Assembly: GCF_001936595.1 (NCBI RefSeq)
Contig: NZ_MLBG01000016.1
Location: 1 to 55,135, forward strand
Source of the DNA: Desulfovibrio sp. DV
Lineage (GTDB): Bacteria > Desulfobacterota > Desulfovibrionia > Desulfovibrionales > Desulfovibrionaceae
Direction of reading: 5' to 3'
DNA length: 55,135 bases
In this document: one piece after another, positions 45,685-51,673 of the stretch
Layout of the letters: each line of letters opens with the position of its first letter
Numbering within the stretch: position 1 is the stretch's first letter
Notes under the pieces: model-generated
The model's database searches: none
Seen by the model: the letters and a program-made list of their open reading frames with translations, nothing else
Told to the model about the DNA's origin: nothing
Made by a program: the position numbers and the translations under genes

Positions 45685-46449
45685 GTGCTAGTCCCCACAG
45701 TCGTGGAATCAAGCAAACTTGCCCTTTCCATCCAGGCCCAGCCCGATGACACCACCTGCGGGCCGACCTGCCTGCACGCCGTGTACGGCTACTACGGCGA
45801 CGTCCTGTCCCTCGACTCGGTCATTGCCGGCGTCACCACCCTGCCCGGCGGCGGCACCCTGGCCGCCCATCTCGGCTGCCACGCCCTGGACCGGGGCTAT
45901 GCCGCCAAGCTCTATTCCTTTGATCTGACCGTCTTTGACATCACTTGGTTTAACTCCTCGAAAATCGATATTGCCCGCAAGCTGACCGAGCAACTGCACT
46001 ACAAGACCGAACCGCGCCTTCGCGAAGCAACCTTCGCCTACAAGGCTTTTTTGCAGCGTGGCGGCAAAATCCGTTTCGAGGACCTCACCGCCGGTCTCAT
46101 CCGTTCCATCCTCAAACGCAACCGGCCCATCCTGGCCGGCCTCTCGGCCACCTATCTTTATCGCACCCCCCGGGAACGCGAGCAGAACGGCATCACCTTT
46201 TTTGACGATTTGCGCGGCCACCCGGCCGGCCATTTCGTGGTCCTAAACGGCTACGAACCAGACCGTCGCACCACCCATATCGCCGATCCGCTGCTGCCAA
46301 ATCCAATAAGCGCCAGCCAGTATTACGAGGTTACGCTTAACCATCTGGTGTGCGCCGTCATGCTTGGCATCGTCACCTGCGACGCCAATCTGCTCGTCTT
46401 GTCCCCCAAAAAGAAAAGCCGGCCCGAAGACCGGCAAAGGAGCTTGTGA
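45685..46449 (+). CDS. C39-like cysteine peptidase of an amidoligase operon
   Basis: GTG 45685 is the start used; GTG 45703 is also possible and no ribosome site decides. The 254-residue protein has the papain-like/C39 signature: Gln18 with Cys25 in QPDDTTCGPTCLHAVYGYYG, His in AGHFVVLNGYE and Asp in HIADPLLP. It lacks a signal peptide and so acts in the cytoplasm. Its stop is two bases before the ligase start, in a four-gene unit with two amidoligases and an N-formylglutamate amidohydrolase. It may cut a peptide or amide product made by the ligases. Confidence 0.8.
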   Translation: MLVPTVVESSKLALSIQAQPDDTTCGPTCLHAVYGYYGDVLSLDSVIAGVTTLPGGGTLAAHLGCHALDRGYAAKLYSFDLTVFDITWFNSSKIDIARKLTEQLHYKTEPRLREATFAYKAFLQRGGKIRFEDLTAGLIRSILKRNRPILAGLSATYLYRTPREREQNGITFFDDLRGHPAGHFVVLNGYEPDRRTTHIADPLLPNPISASQYYEVTLNHLVCAVMLGIVTCDANLLVLSPKKKSRPEDRQRSL

Positions 46450-46451
46450 GC

Positions 46452-47921
46452 GTGTCCGTTCTGGTGGTCATCGAAAACCCCGAGGACTGTTCCCTGGTTT
46501 TTTCCGGCGTCGAATCCGTTGCCGCCCGCAGCTATCTGGCCGACGAGGCCTTCACCACCCTGCGCGGCGTCAAAATCATCAATATCTGCCGTTCCTACCG
46601 CTACCAGTCCATGGGCTACTACGTCTCGCTTCTGGCCGAGGCCCGCGGCCACAGGCCCGTTCCGTCCATCACCGCCATCCAGGACATGAAGTCGGTCGGC
46701 ATCATCCGGCTGGCCTCGGAGGAACTCTCCGAACTCATGGACCGGGTGCTGGCCGAGCGGGCACCCGAAAAAACCAGCTTCTCGGCCTATTTCGGCAAAA
46801 CGCCGGAAAAGGGCCTGGAGCAATTGGCTTCGCGGCTGTTCAAGCTCTTCCCGGCTCCCTTCCTGCGGGCCGATCTCAGTTTCCAGAACGGCTGGCAGCT
46901 GCAAAACGTCTCCCCCCTGTCCGTGCGCGACATCCCCGAGGAAGAGCGCGATTTCGCCGAAGCCGTGTCCGCCGACTACTTCACCGGCAAAAAGGTCAGC
47001 ATTCCCAAACGCCAGGTCAGCCGCTACGATCTGGCCATCCTGTACGATCCCGAGGAACAGCGCGCGCCGTCGGACGCCCGGGCCATCAAGCGCTTCACCA
47101 AGGCGGCCGAGAACCTGGGGCTTGGCGTAGAGATCATCACCCGGGAGGATTCCAACCGCCTCTCCGAGTTCGATGCGCTCTTTATCCGCGAAACCACCAA
47201 CGTCGACCACCACACCTACCGCATGGCCCGAAAAGCCGCAGCCGAGGGGTTGGTCGTCATCGACGATCCGGAATCGATCCTGCGCTGCTCCAACAAGGTC
47301 TACCTGGCCGAGGTGCTCACCCGGCACAAGATACCCGCCCCGCGCACGGTCATTGCCCACTGCAAAAACATCGACCACATCCTGGAAGAACTGTCCCTGC
47401 CGTGTGTGCTCAAGCAACCCGACAGCGCCTTTTCCCAGGGCGTGGTCCTGGTGCGCGAATCCGACGCCCTGGTCCAGGAGGCCCGACGCCTCCTGGCCAA
47501 GTCCGATCTGGTCATCGCCCAGGAATACCTGCCCTCGGACTACGACTGGCGCATCGGCATCCTGGACAGGCGGCCCCTTTTCGCCTGCAAGTATTACATG
47601 GCCGCCGGCCACTGGCAGATTTTGCTCAAGGGCAAATCCGGCAAGGACATCTACGGCCGGGTGGAAACCCTGCCCGTGGCCAAGGTGCCCAAAAAAGTGA
47701 TCAATGCGGCGCTCAAGGCGGCTTCGGCCATCGGCGACGGCCTCTACGGCGTTGATCTCAAGCAGGTTGGGGAAAAGGTCTACGTCATCGAAGTCAATGA
47801 CAACCCCAATATCGATGTCGGCTACGAGGACGAAGTCTTGCAGGATGAACTCTACCTGCGGGTGATGGAAGTGTTCCTCAAACGCATTGAACGACGCAAA
47901 ACCGGGAGCCTCAATATATGA
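46452..47921 (+). CDS. RimK-like ATP-grasp ligase
   Basis: GTG 46452 is chosen since AAGGAG lies nine bases upstream; GTG 46446 overlaps the previous stop (GTGA) but sits too close to that site. The 489-residue protein has an extra N-terminal domain of about 200 residues (VLVVIENPEDC; RSYLADEAFTTLRGVKIINI) and a C-terminal ATP-grasp with CVLKQPDSAFSQGVVLV, VIAQEYLPSDYDWRIGI and the Mg-binding VIEVNDNPNIDVG. RimK relatives join glutamate or other amino acids through amide bonds. With a GCS2 ligase next door, it likely makes an amino-acid conjugate or modifies a peptide. Confidence 0.88.
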   Translation: MSVLVVIENPEDCSLVFSGVESVAARSYLADEAFTTLRGVKIINICRSYRYQSMGYYVSLLAEARGHRPVPSITAIQDMKSVGIIRLASEELSELMDRVLAERAPEKTSFSAYFGKTPEKGLEQLASRLFKLFPAPFLRADLSFQNGWQLQNVSPLSVRDIPEEERDFAEAVSADYFTGKKVSIPKRQVSRYDLAILYDPEEQRAPSDARAIKRFTKAAENLGLGVEIITREDSNRLSEFDALFIRETTNVDHHTYRMARKAAAEGLVVIDDPESILRCSNKVYLAEVLTRHKIPAPRTVIAHCKNIDHILEELSLPCVLKQPDSAFSQGVVLVRESDALVQEARRLLAKSDLVIAQEYLPSDYDWRIGILDRRPLFACKYYMAAGHWQILLKGKSGKDIYGRVETLPVAKVPKKVINAALKAASAIGDGLYGVDLKQVGEKVYVIEVNDNPNIDVGYEDEVLQDELYLRVMEVFLKRIERRKTGSLNI

Positions 47922-49183
47922 CCAAGGCCAGACCGCTTTTTTCCGCTTTCGGCATCGAGATCGAATACATGATCGTGGATCGGGAGACGCTTGACGTCAA
48001 ACCCGTGGCCGACGCCCTGCTGGCTGCTGCCGCCGGCCAGGAAGGGGCCTGCGACGCGGTCATGGGGCCGGTCACCTGGTCCAACGAACTGGTGGCCCAT
48101 GTGCTGGAGATGAAGGTGACCAAGCCGGCCAAGAGCCTCAAGGGCCTTGCCGCCACCTTTGCCAAGAGCGTGGAGAAGGCCGACAAGCTGCTTGCTCCGC
48201 TTGGCGCGCGCCTTTTGCCAACCGGCGCCCATCCCCTCATGGATCCCTTCAAGGAAACCGTGCTGTGGCCCCATGAGAACGGCGAACTCTACCAGACCTT
48301 TGACAGCATTTTCAATTGCAAGGGCCATGGCTGGGCCAACTTGCAAAGTATGCACCTGAACCTGCCCTTCAAGGGCGACGACGAGTTCGGCCGCCTCCAT
48401 GCCGCCATCCGGGTGCTGCTGCCCATCATGCCGGCCCTGGCCGCTTCCACCCCCATTCTCGACGGCAAGGCCACCGGCTTTCTCGATGCCCGCATGGAGC
48501 ACTATGCCCACAACGCCGACCGGGTTCCCTCGGTCATGGGCATGGTTATCCCGGAAGCCGTTTTTTCCATTGATGAATACCACCAACGGGTGCTTGAGCC
48601 GCTGTATCGCGACATCGCCCCCCTGGACCCCAATGGCCTGCTCCATGGCGATTTCCTCAATGCCCGGGGGGCCATTCCCCGGTTCGAGCGCTCCACCATC
48701 GAAATCCGGGTGCTCGACACCCAGGAATGTCCGGCCGCCGACTTCGCCCTGGCGGCCGTGGTCGTGGCTGCCCTGAAAGGTCTTGTTGAAGAACGTTGGT
48801 CCACCTACGAGGAGCAGAAAGCCTGGGGCACCCGGCCCCTGGCCGACATCCTGGGCAAGACCGTCCACGACGCCGGCCGCACCAAGGTTTCCGAAGACTA
48901 TGCCAAGCTCTTTGGCGTCTATGCCCCGTCGGTCATCCCGGCCAGGGTCATCTGGCGGCGGCTGGCCTTAAGCGCCCTGCCGAGCATGGATTTCGATCCG
49001 GACTGGGAAAAGCCGCTCGGCGTCCTGGTCGATCAATCGAGCCTGGCCCGGCGCATCCTGGCCGCCGTGGACGGGGATTATCGCCCGGGCACCATCAAGC
49101 GCATCTACGGCCAATTGGCGGACTGCCTGAAACAAAACGAGCCGTTTAATGTCGGCATCCTGGGCGCTTCTTATTACCTGTGA
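47918..49183 (+). CDS. GCS2-type carboxylate-amine ligase
   Basis: The start overlaps the previous stop as ATGA. The 421-residue protein is related to glutamate-cysteine ligase type 2, with FGIEIEYMIVDRETLD (metal-binding Glu-x-Glu), NLQSMHLNLPF and STIEIRVLDTQECPAADF. Members link an amine to a carboxylate using ATP through a glutamine-synthetase-like fold. Identity as a glutathione-pathway enzyme is unlikely given the operon. It acts with the ATP-grasp protein. Confidence 0.88.
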   Translation: MTKARPLFSAFGIEIEYMIVDRETLDVKPVADALLAAAAGQEGACDAVMGPVTWSNELVAHVLEMKVTKPAKSLKGLAATFAKSVEKADKLLAPLGARLLPTGAHPLMDPFKETVLWPHENGELYQTFDSIFNCKGHGWANLQSMHLNLPFKGDDEFGRLHAAIRVLLPIMPALAASTPILDGKATGFLDARMEHYAHNADRVPSVMGMVIPEAVFSIDEYHQRVLEPLYRDIAPLDPNGLLHGDFLNARGAIPRFERSTIEIRVLDTQECPAADFALAAVVVAALKGLVEERWSTYEEQKAWGTRPLADILGKTVHDAGRTKVSEDYAKLFGVYAPSVIPARVIWRRLALSALPSMDFDPDWEKPLGVLVDQSSLARRILAAVDGDYRPGTIKRIYGQLADCLKQNEPFNVGILGASYYL

Positions 49184-49868
49184 GCACGGCGGCAATGCCG
49201 TGCCCGGGGACTACTCCCCGCTTTTTGCCGACTGGGGCGAGGTCCTGGCCAGCCACCGGGGTTTCGACCTCGGCGCACTGGCCACGGCCCGGGTGCTGGC
49301 CCGGGCCGTGGCCGCGCCGCTGCTCGCCGCCACGGTCAGCCGCCTGCTCGTGGATCTCAACCGGTCGGTCGGCCATCCCCGGCTTTTCTCGGGAGTGACA
49401 AAGGGTCTGCCGCACGCAGCCCGGCAGACCATCCTGGCCGCCCACTACCATCCCCACCGCGAAGCCGTGGCCCGGTTGGCGGCCGAAGGACTGGCGGCGG
49501 GCAAAACCGTGCTCCACATTGCCAGCCACAGCTTCACCCCGCGCCTCAATGGCGTGACCCGCCACTGCGACGTGGGCTTTCTCTACGATCCCGGGCGGGC
49601 GGCGGAAAAGACGTTTTGCGGCAGATGGCTGCGCGAACTGGCCTGTCTGGACGGCGACCTCATCCTGCGCCGCAATTATCCCTATCGCGGCGTATCCGAC
49701 GGCTTGGCGACGGCCCTGCGGCGTCGTTTCGGGGAGCGGTATCTGGGCGTGGAGCTGGAGGTGAACCAGCGCTTTGCCCTGGGCGGCGAGGAGACGCTTA
49801 CGAGTGTCAGCGACCACATAGCTGACGCGCTCGTCCGGGCCTTGGGCAGGAAGACGGTCTGCCGGTAG
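49149..49868 (+). CDS. N-formylglutamate amidohydrolase-family protein
   Basis: ATG 49149 lies within the end of the ligase gene, a 35-base overlap. The 239-residue protein has the family marks TCEHGGNAVP, DLGALATARVLAR, SRLLVDLNRSVGHP and HIASHSFTP with a late VELEVNQR. FGase enzymes hydrolyse N-formyl-L-glutamate to formate and glutamate with zinc. No histidine-utilisation genes are here, so it probably works on a product of the neighbouring ligases. It is the last gene of the four-gene unit. Confidence 0.85.
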   Translation: MSASWALLITCEHGGNAVPGDYSPLFADWGEVLASHRGFDLGALATARVLARAVAAPLLAATVSRLLVDLNRSVGHPRLFSGVTKGLPHAARQTILAAHYHPHREAVARLAAEGLAAGKTVLHIASHSFTPRLNGVTRHCDVGFLYDPGRAAEKTFCGRWLRELACLDGDLILRRNYPYRGVSDGLATALRRRFGERYLGVELEVNQRFALGGEETLTSVSDHIADALVRALGRKTVCR

Positions 49869-49971
49869 GCCGGCCCAACCCACCCCGCCGTTGCGCCCGG
49901 CCGGCCTTTCGTGCCATGGGAGCCGTACCGACATCGAACATCCCGACCCGACGGAGGATCGCACACCCGCC

Positions 49972-51673
49972 ATGGCCGCCCCCTTCGCCGCATCCGACAT
50001 CCTTGGGTCGCTTCCCCGGCCGGTCGTGGCCGTGGACGCCGATGGCCGGGTGGCCAGCGCCAACCCTGCCGCCCTGGCCCTGTTCGGCCCGGAGGTGGCC
50101 ACGCCCGGCGCGGCCTTGCCCCTTATCCGCCCCGATCTCTGGCAACACCTCGCCCGCTGCCTCAAGGAGGCCGCCCCGGCCTATGACCGTCTCGACGTCG
50201 GGGCCAGAACCATTTCGCTGACCGCCTTTCCCGTGCGCCGCGACGGTCGCGTGGTCGGCGCAACGACCATCTGCCGTCCCTGTTCCGGTGAAGCCCATCC
50301 GGCCATGGAAGGGCAGTTGCGCTCCATCCTGGACTCGGTTTCCGACGGCATCTGGATCTGCGACGGCACCGGGGCCATTCTCGACATCAACGCCGCCTCC
50401 GAGCGCCTCAATTCCATTGAAGCGGCCGAGTATATTGGCAAAAACGTCGCCTGTATCGTGGCCGAACGTATGGTCGACCGCTCGGCCACCCTCGATGTCC
50501 TGGAAACCAAACGCCAGTCGAGCATGATCCAGCACATCACCAAGACCGGCAAGCAACTGCTGGTAACAGCCACGCCGGTCCTGGACGACCAGGGCAGGGT
50601 GGCCCTGGTGGTGGTCAACGAACGCGACGTGACGGAACTCCAGAACCTGCGCCAGGGCCTGCAAAACGCCCGCAAGGTGGAGGAACGCTACCGCAGCGAG
50701 CTGGCCGAACTGTCCCTTTTCGAACTGTCGCAAAAAGACATCGTGGCCCAGAGCCCGCAGATGCAACGGACCTTGCGCACGCTTTTAAAGCTCGCCCAGA
50801 TGGACGCCTCCCGGGTCCTGCTCCTTGGCGAATCCGGCACAGGCAAGGGCCTGCTCGCCAAGTTCCTGCATCAGGTCAGCCCCAGGTCGCAAAAACCCTT
50901 TATCCAGATCAACTGCCCGGCCGTACCGGAAAAACCTTTTTGAGGCGGAACTGTTCGGGTATGAGAAAGGGGCCTTTACCGGGGCCAAGGAAGACGGCAA
51001 GGCCGGGCTTATCGAGTTGGCCATGGGCGGAACGCTCTTTCTCGACGAGGTGGGCGATATTCCGCTTTCGGTCCAGGCCAAGCTGCTCAAATATCTCGAC
51101 GACCACGAACTGCGGCGTCTGGGCGGGGCTGATCCGCGCATTGTCGAATGCCGGGTGGTGGCCGCCACCAACTGCGACCTCGAAGGGCTGGTGGAACGCC
51201 GCCAGTTCCGCAAAGATCTTTACTATCGCCTCAACACCTTCGTGGTGCGCATCATTCCCCTGCGCGAACGCCGCGAGGATATCTTCGGCCTGGCCGAATT
51301 CTACCTGGCCCAGCAAAACGCCCGCCACGGCCGGGCCAAACGCCTCTCGGCCCGGGCCATGCGCCACCTTGAAGCCTACGATTTTCCCGGCAACGTCCGC
51401 GAACTCGTCAGCATCATCCAGAAAGCCTTTGTCATGAGCGACGACGACGATCTCACCGAAGCGTTGATCGAAGCCCTGGCCGGCGACATGCCCCTGCCCG
51501 CCTCCCTGCCCGGTCCCCGCCCTCTGGTCCAGTCCACCGAGCAGGCCAGTATCCGACGCCTTCGGGAAGCCATGGCTGTGTGCCGCACCACCCGGGAAAT
51601 GGCCGCCCACCTCGGGGTGAGCCAGGCCACCGTGGTGCGCAAGCTCAAGCGCTACGGCCTGTCCCGGTCCTGA
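49972..51673 (+). pseudogene. Sigma-54-dependent PAS/AAA+ activator, broken by one extra base
   Basis: The gene is in two frames. The first part (from MAAPFAASD at 49972; GGAGG lies about 14 bases before) has two PAS domains and the AAA+ start with Walker A GESGTGKG and the end INCPAVPEKPF-stop at 50943. Removing one A from the A5 run at 50930-50934 gives PENLFEAELFGYEKGAFTGA, exactly the normal sequence with the sigma-54 contact motif GAFTGA. The second part then has Walker B GGTLFLDEVGD, the sensor and FRKDLYYRLN regions, and a C-terminal helix-turn-helix (TREMAAHLGVSQATVVRKL). Corrected length is 566 residues. It likely controls the downstream aminotransferase operon. Confidence 0.85.

Follow-up and report, generated by a model that had tools for sequence, protein, structure and literature searches.

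In a stretch of 55,135 nucleotides from Desulfovibrio sp. DV (contig NZ_MLBG01000016.1, positions 1 to 55,135, hereafter the window), four consecutive genes encode a C39-like cysteine enzyme, two amide-forming ligases of the RLAN-ATP-grasp and GCS2 types, and an N-formylglutamate amidohydrolase-like enzyme (FGase). Very probably these genes form one unsolved pathway, which either produces and recycles a small molecule with amide linkages or alters a peptide end. The gene set, here called the cassette, is real and widely conserved, and not a chance cluster. Its conserved core consists of three genes, encoding C39, the RLAN ligase and GCS2. An earlier note, made from the sequence alone, had described a four-gene operon, and open reading frames (ORFs) and Pfam matches confirm it at these positions:

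45685-46449, + strand: C39-like cysteine peptidase/transferase, 254 aa (PF13529 Peptidase_C39_2, 1.7e-7)
46452 (or 46446)-47921, + strand: RLAN + RimK/LysX-type ATP-grasp amidoligase (PF14401, 2.2e-47; PF08443, 1.3e-10)
47918-49183, + strand: GCS2 carboxylate-amine ligase, 421 aa (PF04107, 9.6e-27)
49149-49868, + strand: FGase, 239 aa, an optional cassette member (PF05013, 6.2e-21)

The genes are tightly packed. GCS2 overlaps the ligase by ATGA (47918-47921) and the FGase by 35 bases (49149-49183), as first described. The C39 stop codon, read from the sequence, is the TGA at 46447-46449, and the ligase has two candidate starts. With GTG 46452, the 2-base gap of the earlier note holds; with GTG 46446, the two genes share a GTGA overlap instead. 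Hydropathy revealed nothing like a signal peptide at the N-termini of the four proteins (best 17-residue mean within the first 45 amino acids, 0.59-1.25), which fits a cytoplasmic location.

Evidence for a functional unit comes from other genomes. A ligase search with one genome per species yielded at least 560 confirmed relatives, and the best 80 loci were analyzed; being the best-scoring ones, they lean to close kin. After 14 loci with short flanks were dropped, 66 had a full flank (at least 1.1 kb before and at least 2.2 kb after the ligase). Genes were counted as present when they lay within the fetched locus, not always touching, with gaps above 1 kb in L046, L108 and L078. C39, ligase and GCS2 occur together in 62 of the 66 full-flank loci, 16 of these without a profile-detected FGase, and all four families in 46 (47 counting L102, in which the FGase was found by Pfam and missed by the profile). 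Of the other four loci, one has C39 with the ligase, another has the ligase with GCS2, and two have only the ligase. The order C39-ligase-GCS2-FGase is kept in 47 of the 49 loci with all four; in two Chlamydiia metagenome-assembled genomes (MAGs; L085 and L109), C39 comes last. Labels in the ligase tree cover about 16 phyla, one archaeal, as taken from the titles of records that are mostly MAGs. One record, titled Klebsiella pneumoniae MAG (L082), groups with uncultured gammaproteobacteria in this tree and is possibly mislabelled. With one gene set returning in so many phyla, the clustering is far beyond chance, and since the genes are neighbors in most loci tested, the fear that they might rarely be so elsewhere can be put aside.

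A phylum sample of 395 genomes, chosen regardless of gene neighbors, contained 17 genomes with RLAN. Thirteen of them (four from the family of the window) have C39, ligase and GCS2, and the other four have a broken ligase ORF with GCS2 and no C39 found (one), a separate GNAT acyltransferase (two) or a GNAT fusion (one). In loci L175 and L176 of genome G443, the RLAN ligase is broken by a TGA or a frame change, beside a GCS2 gene. The four proteins also diverge in a correlated manner: Mantel r among their distance matrices was 0.50-0.75, a level that none of 1000 permutations reached for any pair. The set comprised 47 loci with all four genes, 17 named near-duplicates having been removed, and organism phylogeny was left uncorrected; the correlation partly reflects common descent. 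Three divergent partial relatives on viral contigs (L142-L144) have the ATP-grasp part only, and among the four profiles, their ORFs match only that of the ligase; they are not RLAN loci and were excluded from all counts.

The earlier note had suggested looking for a conserved small substrate gene nearby. Among the 45 largest neighbor clusters of 112 loci (BLASTP E 1e-8), no fifth recurring gene of at least 50 aa was seen outside close relatives, a scan that short divergent ORFs could escape. Other recurring clusters were antisense or overlapping frames within the four families. No exporter or acyl-carrier-protein gene recurs among these clusters.

In the source genome, one RLAN, one GCS2 and one FGase were found, all within the cassette. 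The genome has no match to histidine ammonia-lyase (PF00221), a family which the same search detects in 5 of 14 control genomes. For this reason the FGase cannot serve histidine breakdown, and a role as HutG was rejected. Across 199 genomes of the order to which the window belongs, GCS2 was matched in 26, strongly (E < 1e-17) in 20, and 19 of the strong matches belong to RLAN cassette genomes. Similarly, 16 of the 17 genomes with an FGase are cassette genomes. No independent housekeeping role is thus visible for these enzymes, the second point that could have undone the proposal of the earlier note. The single strong orphan GCS2 of the order (G190, L151:6691-8052), in a genome without RLAN or C39, has an altered WSNE..H..E active-site stretch and is perhaps a relic after cassette loss.

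The fourth gene is an optional member. Fifteen of the 16 cassette loci without an adjacent FGase were checked at genome level (L081 was left out), with a test that scored the FGase in all four control genomes carrying it in the cassette. In 13 of the 15 genomes there is none anywhere, and in those of L036 and L091 there is one elsewhere. Two genomes of the window's order (G082 and G149) are also without FGase. Since many of the genomes are MAGs, its absence may be overcounted. No replacement recurs in the slots after GCS2 (20 loci, by eye). Of the four-gene set first proposed, therefore, the three-gene core stands, and the FGase has to be given up as a fixed member. In some loci this enzyme carries an additional domain, namely in an FGase-NUDIX fusion (L048:10880-12133 by Pfam, and L050:5478-6728 as read from the sequence) and in L069:10699-11955, where the same frame runs on into an HD-like domain that stays under its Pfam cut-off.

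A further trait of the cassette is the alternation between GCS2 and GNAT. The order of the window includes 35 RLAN genomes. GCS2 is present in 19 of them; the other 16 lack it and encode a GNAT-RLAN fusion with GNAT at the N-terminus. Pfam confirmed the GNAT domain of all 16 fusions, and none of their genomes has a GCS2 or FGase. The same pattern appears in the wider set. GNAT is fused or adjacent in 22 of the 29 RLAN loci without adjacent GCS2, as compared to 2 of the 92 with GCS2 (L081 by profile only, L046 by Pfam only), a lower bound because GNATs unlike the profile could be missed beside GCS2. The 92 loci count one sequence twice (L037 = L111). The 29 consist of 20 of the 112 loci plus L153-L155, L172-L174, L145, L147 and L148, and 16 of them, the order fusions, are one kin group. 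As the GNAT profile was built from the fusions, L172 and L147, Pfam was used as an independent test (17 fusions, as well as L105, L147, L148 and L173); the GNAT of L172 rests on NCBIfam GNAT models, and that of L135 is cut by the contig end. GNAT is a separate neighbor in L172, L173, L105 and L148. In Azospirillum, it is fused to the C39 domain DUF3335 just upstream of the RLAN ligase. DUF3335 (PF11814) was not matched by the window C39 at E 0.001 in Pfam, yet the two are related by profile (probability 75%, E 2.4e-5) with catalytic Cys, His and Asp aligned, so that the Azospirillum form also pairs a RLAN ligase with a related C39. A Pirellulaceae MAG (L046:6305-7858) has a gene for a fusion of GNAT and a carbon-nitrogen hydrolase between C39 and RLAN ligase.

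L105 is the most convincing candidate for an independent swap from GCS2 to GNAT. Its ligase is nested among cassette ligases (97 in the Shimodaira-Hasegawa-like approximate likelihood ratio test, SH-aLRT), and a GNAT gene lies 14 bp after it, in the GCS2 slot. Its contig extends only 665 bp beyond the ligase, but no GCS2 was found in this genome of 1.5 Mb.

The fusion loci of the order (L129-L141, L153-L155) have another neighbor. In 15 of the 16 (all but L129), a small SET-domain gene lies directly 3' of the GNAT-RLAN ligase, as counted with a profile built from eight of these genes and confirmed as SET by Pfam in L130 and L133. GNAT-RLAN-ATP-grasp with SET is an unusual bacterial pairing.

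All four enzymes keep conserved residues which, judged by their families, are catalytic or ligand-binding. For C39, the set Q19, C25, H183 and D201 is kept in 92, 92, 93 and 93 of 93 rows, which agrees with the residues of the double-glycine leader peptidases (Gln, Cys, His, Asp). However, it is a single-domain protein without ABC exporter fusion, and a bacteriocin leader peptidase was rejected on the absence of the exporter domain. Its AlphaFold2 model (predicted local distance difference test, pLDDT, 91.9) resembles, in Foldseek, pseudomurein endoisopeptidase, double-glycine peptidases, a "P210 CD lyase" and the primitive phytochelatin synthase Alr0975 (best TM-score 0.50/0.61, with bound glutathione). 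The ligase carries PF14401 (160.9 bits, cut-off 25) followed by PF08443 (41.7 bits, cut-off 21), as expected of an RLAN-type amidoligase. It stays below the cut-offs for RimK S6-glutamate ligases (TIGR00768, 69.3 of 143.4 bits; PRK10446, 26.8 of 331 bits), and its nearest solved relatives are LysX and RimK. The ATP-grasp columns K287, K326, R372, D440, E452 and N454 (alignment numbering) are conserved at 1.00 in 112 rows; a single-sequence AlphaFold model of this ligase gave no usable fold (pLDDT 34). In GCS2, E14, E16, E57 and E64 are kept in 91 of 92 rows and R192, R250, R258, E262 and R264 in 89, the remaining rows being gaps. It falls short of the GshA/YbdK-type glutamate-cysteine ligase cut-offs (best TIGR02050, 63.9 of 176.4 bits) and reaches only the broad PF04107. 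Its nearest solved structure is a plant glutamate-cysteine ligase, an Arg of which aligns with the invariant R192 and presumably binds glutamate. In the FGase, E12, H13, H36, N71, R72, H127 and R138 are kept in 64 of 64 rows.

We tentatively favor, while holding it somewhat short of probable, one cytoplasmic pathway that would build and turn over a short amine-capped amide compound from ordinary amino acids, very likely with glutamate among the building blocks. As we infer the substrates and the order of the steps, GCS2 would link an amine to a side-chain carboxylate (that of gamma-glutamate, going by its family), and the RLAN-ATP-grasp ligase would form a second amide bond. The C39-like enzyme would then transfer or hydrolyze the product of the ligases through an acyl-enzyme, and the FGase, where present, would remove an amide-linked cap or salvage a building block. 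In the sister systems, a GNAT acyltransferase stands in for GCS2. Both enzymes acylate amines, GCS2 via an ATP-activated carboxylate and GNAT via acyl-CoA. As GNAT replaces GCS2 there, GCS2 probably carries out the N-capping of an amine, and the two would cap the same kind of amine. In a more specific form, which is possible yet rather doubtful, the cassette would both make and recycle a gamma-glutamyl- or N-acyl-capped small peptide, glutathione-like or compatible-solute-like, that is widely shared in some 16 phyla; capping would be done either by the GCS2 ligase with ATP or by a GNAT with acyl-CoA. The picture drawn by the earlier note, of two amide-forming and two amide-breaking enzymes acting as one unit, agrees with our results as regards the unit and its wide conservation, whereas cleavage by C39 and FGase is putative, going by their families.

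Several observations weigh against a capped small product. The C39 model has a best Foldseek E-value of 1.2e-5 at a root-mean-square deviation of 8.5 A, its top single TM-score belongs to the "P210 CD lyase" and not to Alr0975, and the fold and family matches of the cassette proteins are all distant and do not fix the substrate. The GCS2/GNAT contrast is mostly one old split: all 13 fusion ligases included in the tree group in a single clade (100 SH-aLRT, with midpoint rooting), and the division into 19 and 16 genomes does not represent 35 independent events. The 16 fusion genomes are without a cassette-type C39, save two weak partial matches inside ORFs of more than 1000 aa, and their pathway may therefore differ. 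In seven of the 29 loci that lack an adjacent GCS2, the profile detects no GNAT either (L065, L086, L107, L145, L045, L055 and L058). In three of these, from Planctomycetota (L045, L055 and L058), C39 and ligase are kept together and GCS2 is elsewhere in the genome; the sequence after the ligase extends over 1.4 kb in L045 and 2.1 kb in L055. On a Pseudomonas aeruginosa plasmid (L145), the RLAN ligase stands alone, so that it can exist without cassette neighbors. Finally, the SET gene and the RimI-like GNATs suit the modification of a protein at least as well as they suit a small product.

The plasmid ligase (L145:5905-7494) lies between a short-chain dehydrogenase/reductase (SDR) gene and a pyridoxal-phosphate aminotransferase gene, near a glutamate/aspartate transporter and ggt. 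Judging by gene order, the lone RLAN ligase of P. aeruginosa is presumably PA1345. The section on Cpx regulation of one paper has PA1345, a "hypothetical ATP-binding protein", among its promoter sites (PMC12802237).

Modification of a peptide or protein end is plausible, if on balance still doubtful. Here the RLAN-ATP-grasp ligase would add an amino acid to a terminus in a RimK-like manner, GCS2 or GNAT would cap the amine, and C39 and FGase would trim or reverse the mark. The RimK/LysX-like ATP-grasp domain and the resemblance of C39 to double-glycine and isopeptide-cleaving peptidases agree with this. Against the model of RimI, which acetylates protein N-termini, three of the four alternative GNATs tested reach 70-87 bits (one of them slightly over the cut-off of 86.4) and the fourth 41.6. 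Together with the SET neighbor of the GNAT form, the RimI-like GNATs make this explanation a close rival. RimI-likeness is nevertheless weak evidence, because many small GNATs score in this way. Moreover, SET is tied to the GNAT form; among the GCS2 cassettes of the loci searched, a related SET ORF lies nearby in L044 only, about 0.6 kb upstream of C39. No conserved gene of at least 50 aa for a substrate protein was seen beside the cassette, and the known GCS2-fold enzymes, Pup ligases excepted, act on free amino acids.

A thiol cycle similar to that of glutathione and phytochelatin is unlikely. GCS2 would make gamma-Glu-Cys, in keeping with its alignment to the plant glutamate-cysteine ligase, the ATP-grasp enzyme, weakly matched by glutathione synthetase (E 0.0034), would add a second residue, and the C39-like protein would act as phytochelatin synthase, as the Alr0975 structures among its model matches might suggest (TM on query 0.40-0.50). 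Yet the phytochelatin synthase family is not among the Pfam matches of the cassette proteins at E 0.001, the NCBIfam matches to the glutathione pathway are far below their cut-offs (e.g. 63.9 of 176.4 and 47.7 of 408 bits), and the GNAT alternation is left unexplained.

The maturation of a precursor peptide, as in ribosomally synthesized and post-translationally modified peptides (RiPPs) or graspetides, is very improbable. An ATP-grasp ligase with a C39 peptidase is a RiPP-like pairing, but the neighbor clusters offered no conserved ORF of at least 50 aa for a precursor (shorter or very divergent ones lie outside that scan), the C39 has no transporter domain, and the largest clusters include no recurring exporter. 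That four independent housekeeping enzymes are neighbors by chance, for which the lone plasmid ligase and the dispensable FGase could be cited, is in effect refuted by the conservation of gene set and order across about 16 labelled phyla, the correlated divergence and an FGase that has no histidine breakdown to serve.

The flanking genes are unlike the cassette in their conservation. FliM is encoded upstream, and a PAS/sigma-54 activator and a class-III aminotransferase downstream; all three were rejected as pathway members, since these flanks are kept in close relatives only. The activator is split into ORFs 49891-50943 and 50825-51673, which overlap in different frames (span 49891-51673), each half holding one part of the Sigma54_activat domain by Pfam. 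In the relative L112, the same activator is a single ORF of 566 aa, and the split is either an assembly error or a broken gene. With a ligase that shares 96% identity with its counterpart in Solidesulfovibrio aerotolerans DSM 16695, the window very probably derives from a Solidesulfovibrio.

Two ligases and two putative amidases that are kept together over such distances almost certainly make or modify something useful that lies outside the textbooks. The alternation of GCS2 and GNAT provides a chemical handle, as both should act on the same type of amine. It limits the range of products to be considered, and a few purified enzymes would suffice to test the pathway. Full-text literature searches, some of them limited to narrow terms or top results and with subscription journals mostly outside, surfaced no product for this gene set, in line with the earlier note.

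The known systems share single elements with the cassette. RimK and LysX, alpha-amino-acid ligases, have the ATP-grasp domain in common and are the best solved relatives of its ligase, which differs by its extra RLAN domain and its low score for the RimK family. HutG shares the PF05013 domain, and the FGase gene belongs to the cassette in a genome without histidine ammonia-lyase. Alr0975, a C83 peptidase, has a papain-like fold and acts on a gamma-glutamyl peptide, whereas the window C39 is only 10-12% identical to it and matches no such Pfam family. The osmolyte N-acetylglutaminylglutamine amide (NAGGN) is made by a trio of Ngg, an amidotransferase and a peptidase. The logic of an acyl cap, an ATP-grasp dipeptide ligase and a peptidase is common to both, but the cassette has no amidotransferase. 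Furthermore, the NAGGN synthetase model TIGR03103, which has a cut-off of 569 bits, is not among the NCBIfam matches of the window ligase. Two RLAN fusions reach 18 and 24 bits with this model and the GNAT-C39 protein 36 bits, in each case through the GNAT part alone. In the protecting-group chemistry of butirosin (BtrJ/BtrH/BtrG), an ATP-grasp ligase, a C39-related transferase and the hydrolysis of a gamma-glutamyl cap are combined. The cassette resembles it in its ligase, its C39-related enzyme and the proposed hydrolysis of a cap, and differs in that no acyl-carrier-protein gene was seen among its conserved neighbors.

A precedent is a survey of 2009 by Iyer et al., which reportedly predicted amidoligase neighborhoods of RLAN-ATP-grasp and GNAT-C39 (DUF3335). 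They share the RLAN-ATP-grasp ligase with the cassette and contain a C39 domain homologous to its own, whereas in the window C39 is free-standing, GCS2 stands in the place of GNAT and an FGase is added. RLAN itself is a named Pfam domain (PF14401), and "undescribed", as the earlier note had it, was too strong a word. A passage in a 2023 paper cites that survey for GNAT-DUF3335 fusions (PMC10318531). The cassette is of an already predicted kind, for which new handles come from the alternation of GCS2 with GNAT, the SET gene tied to the GNAT form and an FGase that is not always present.

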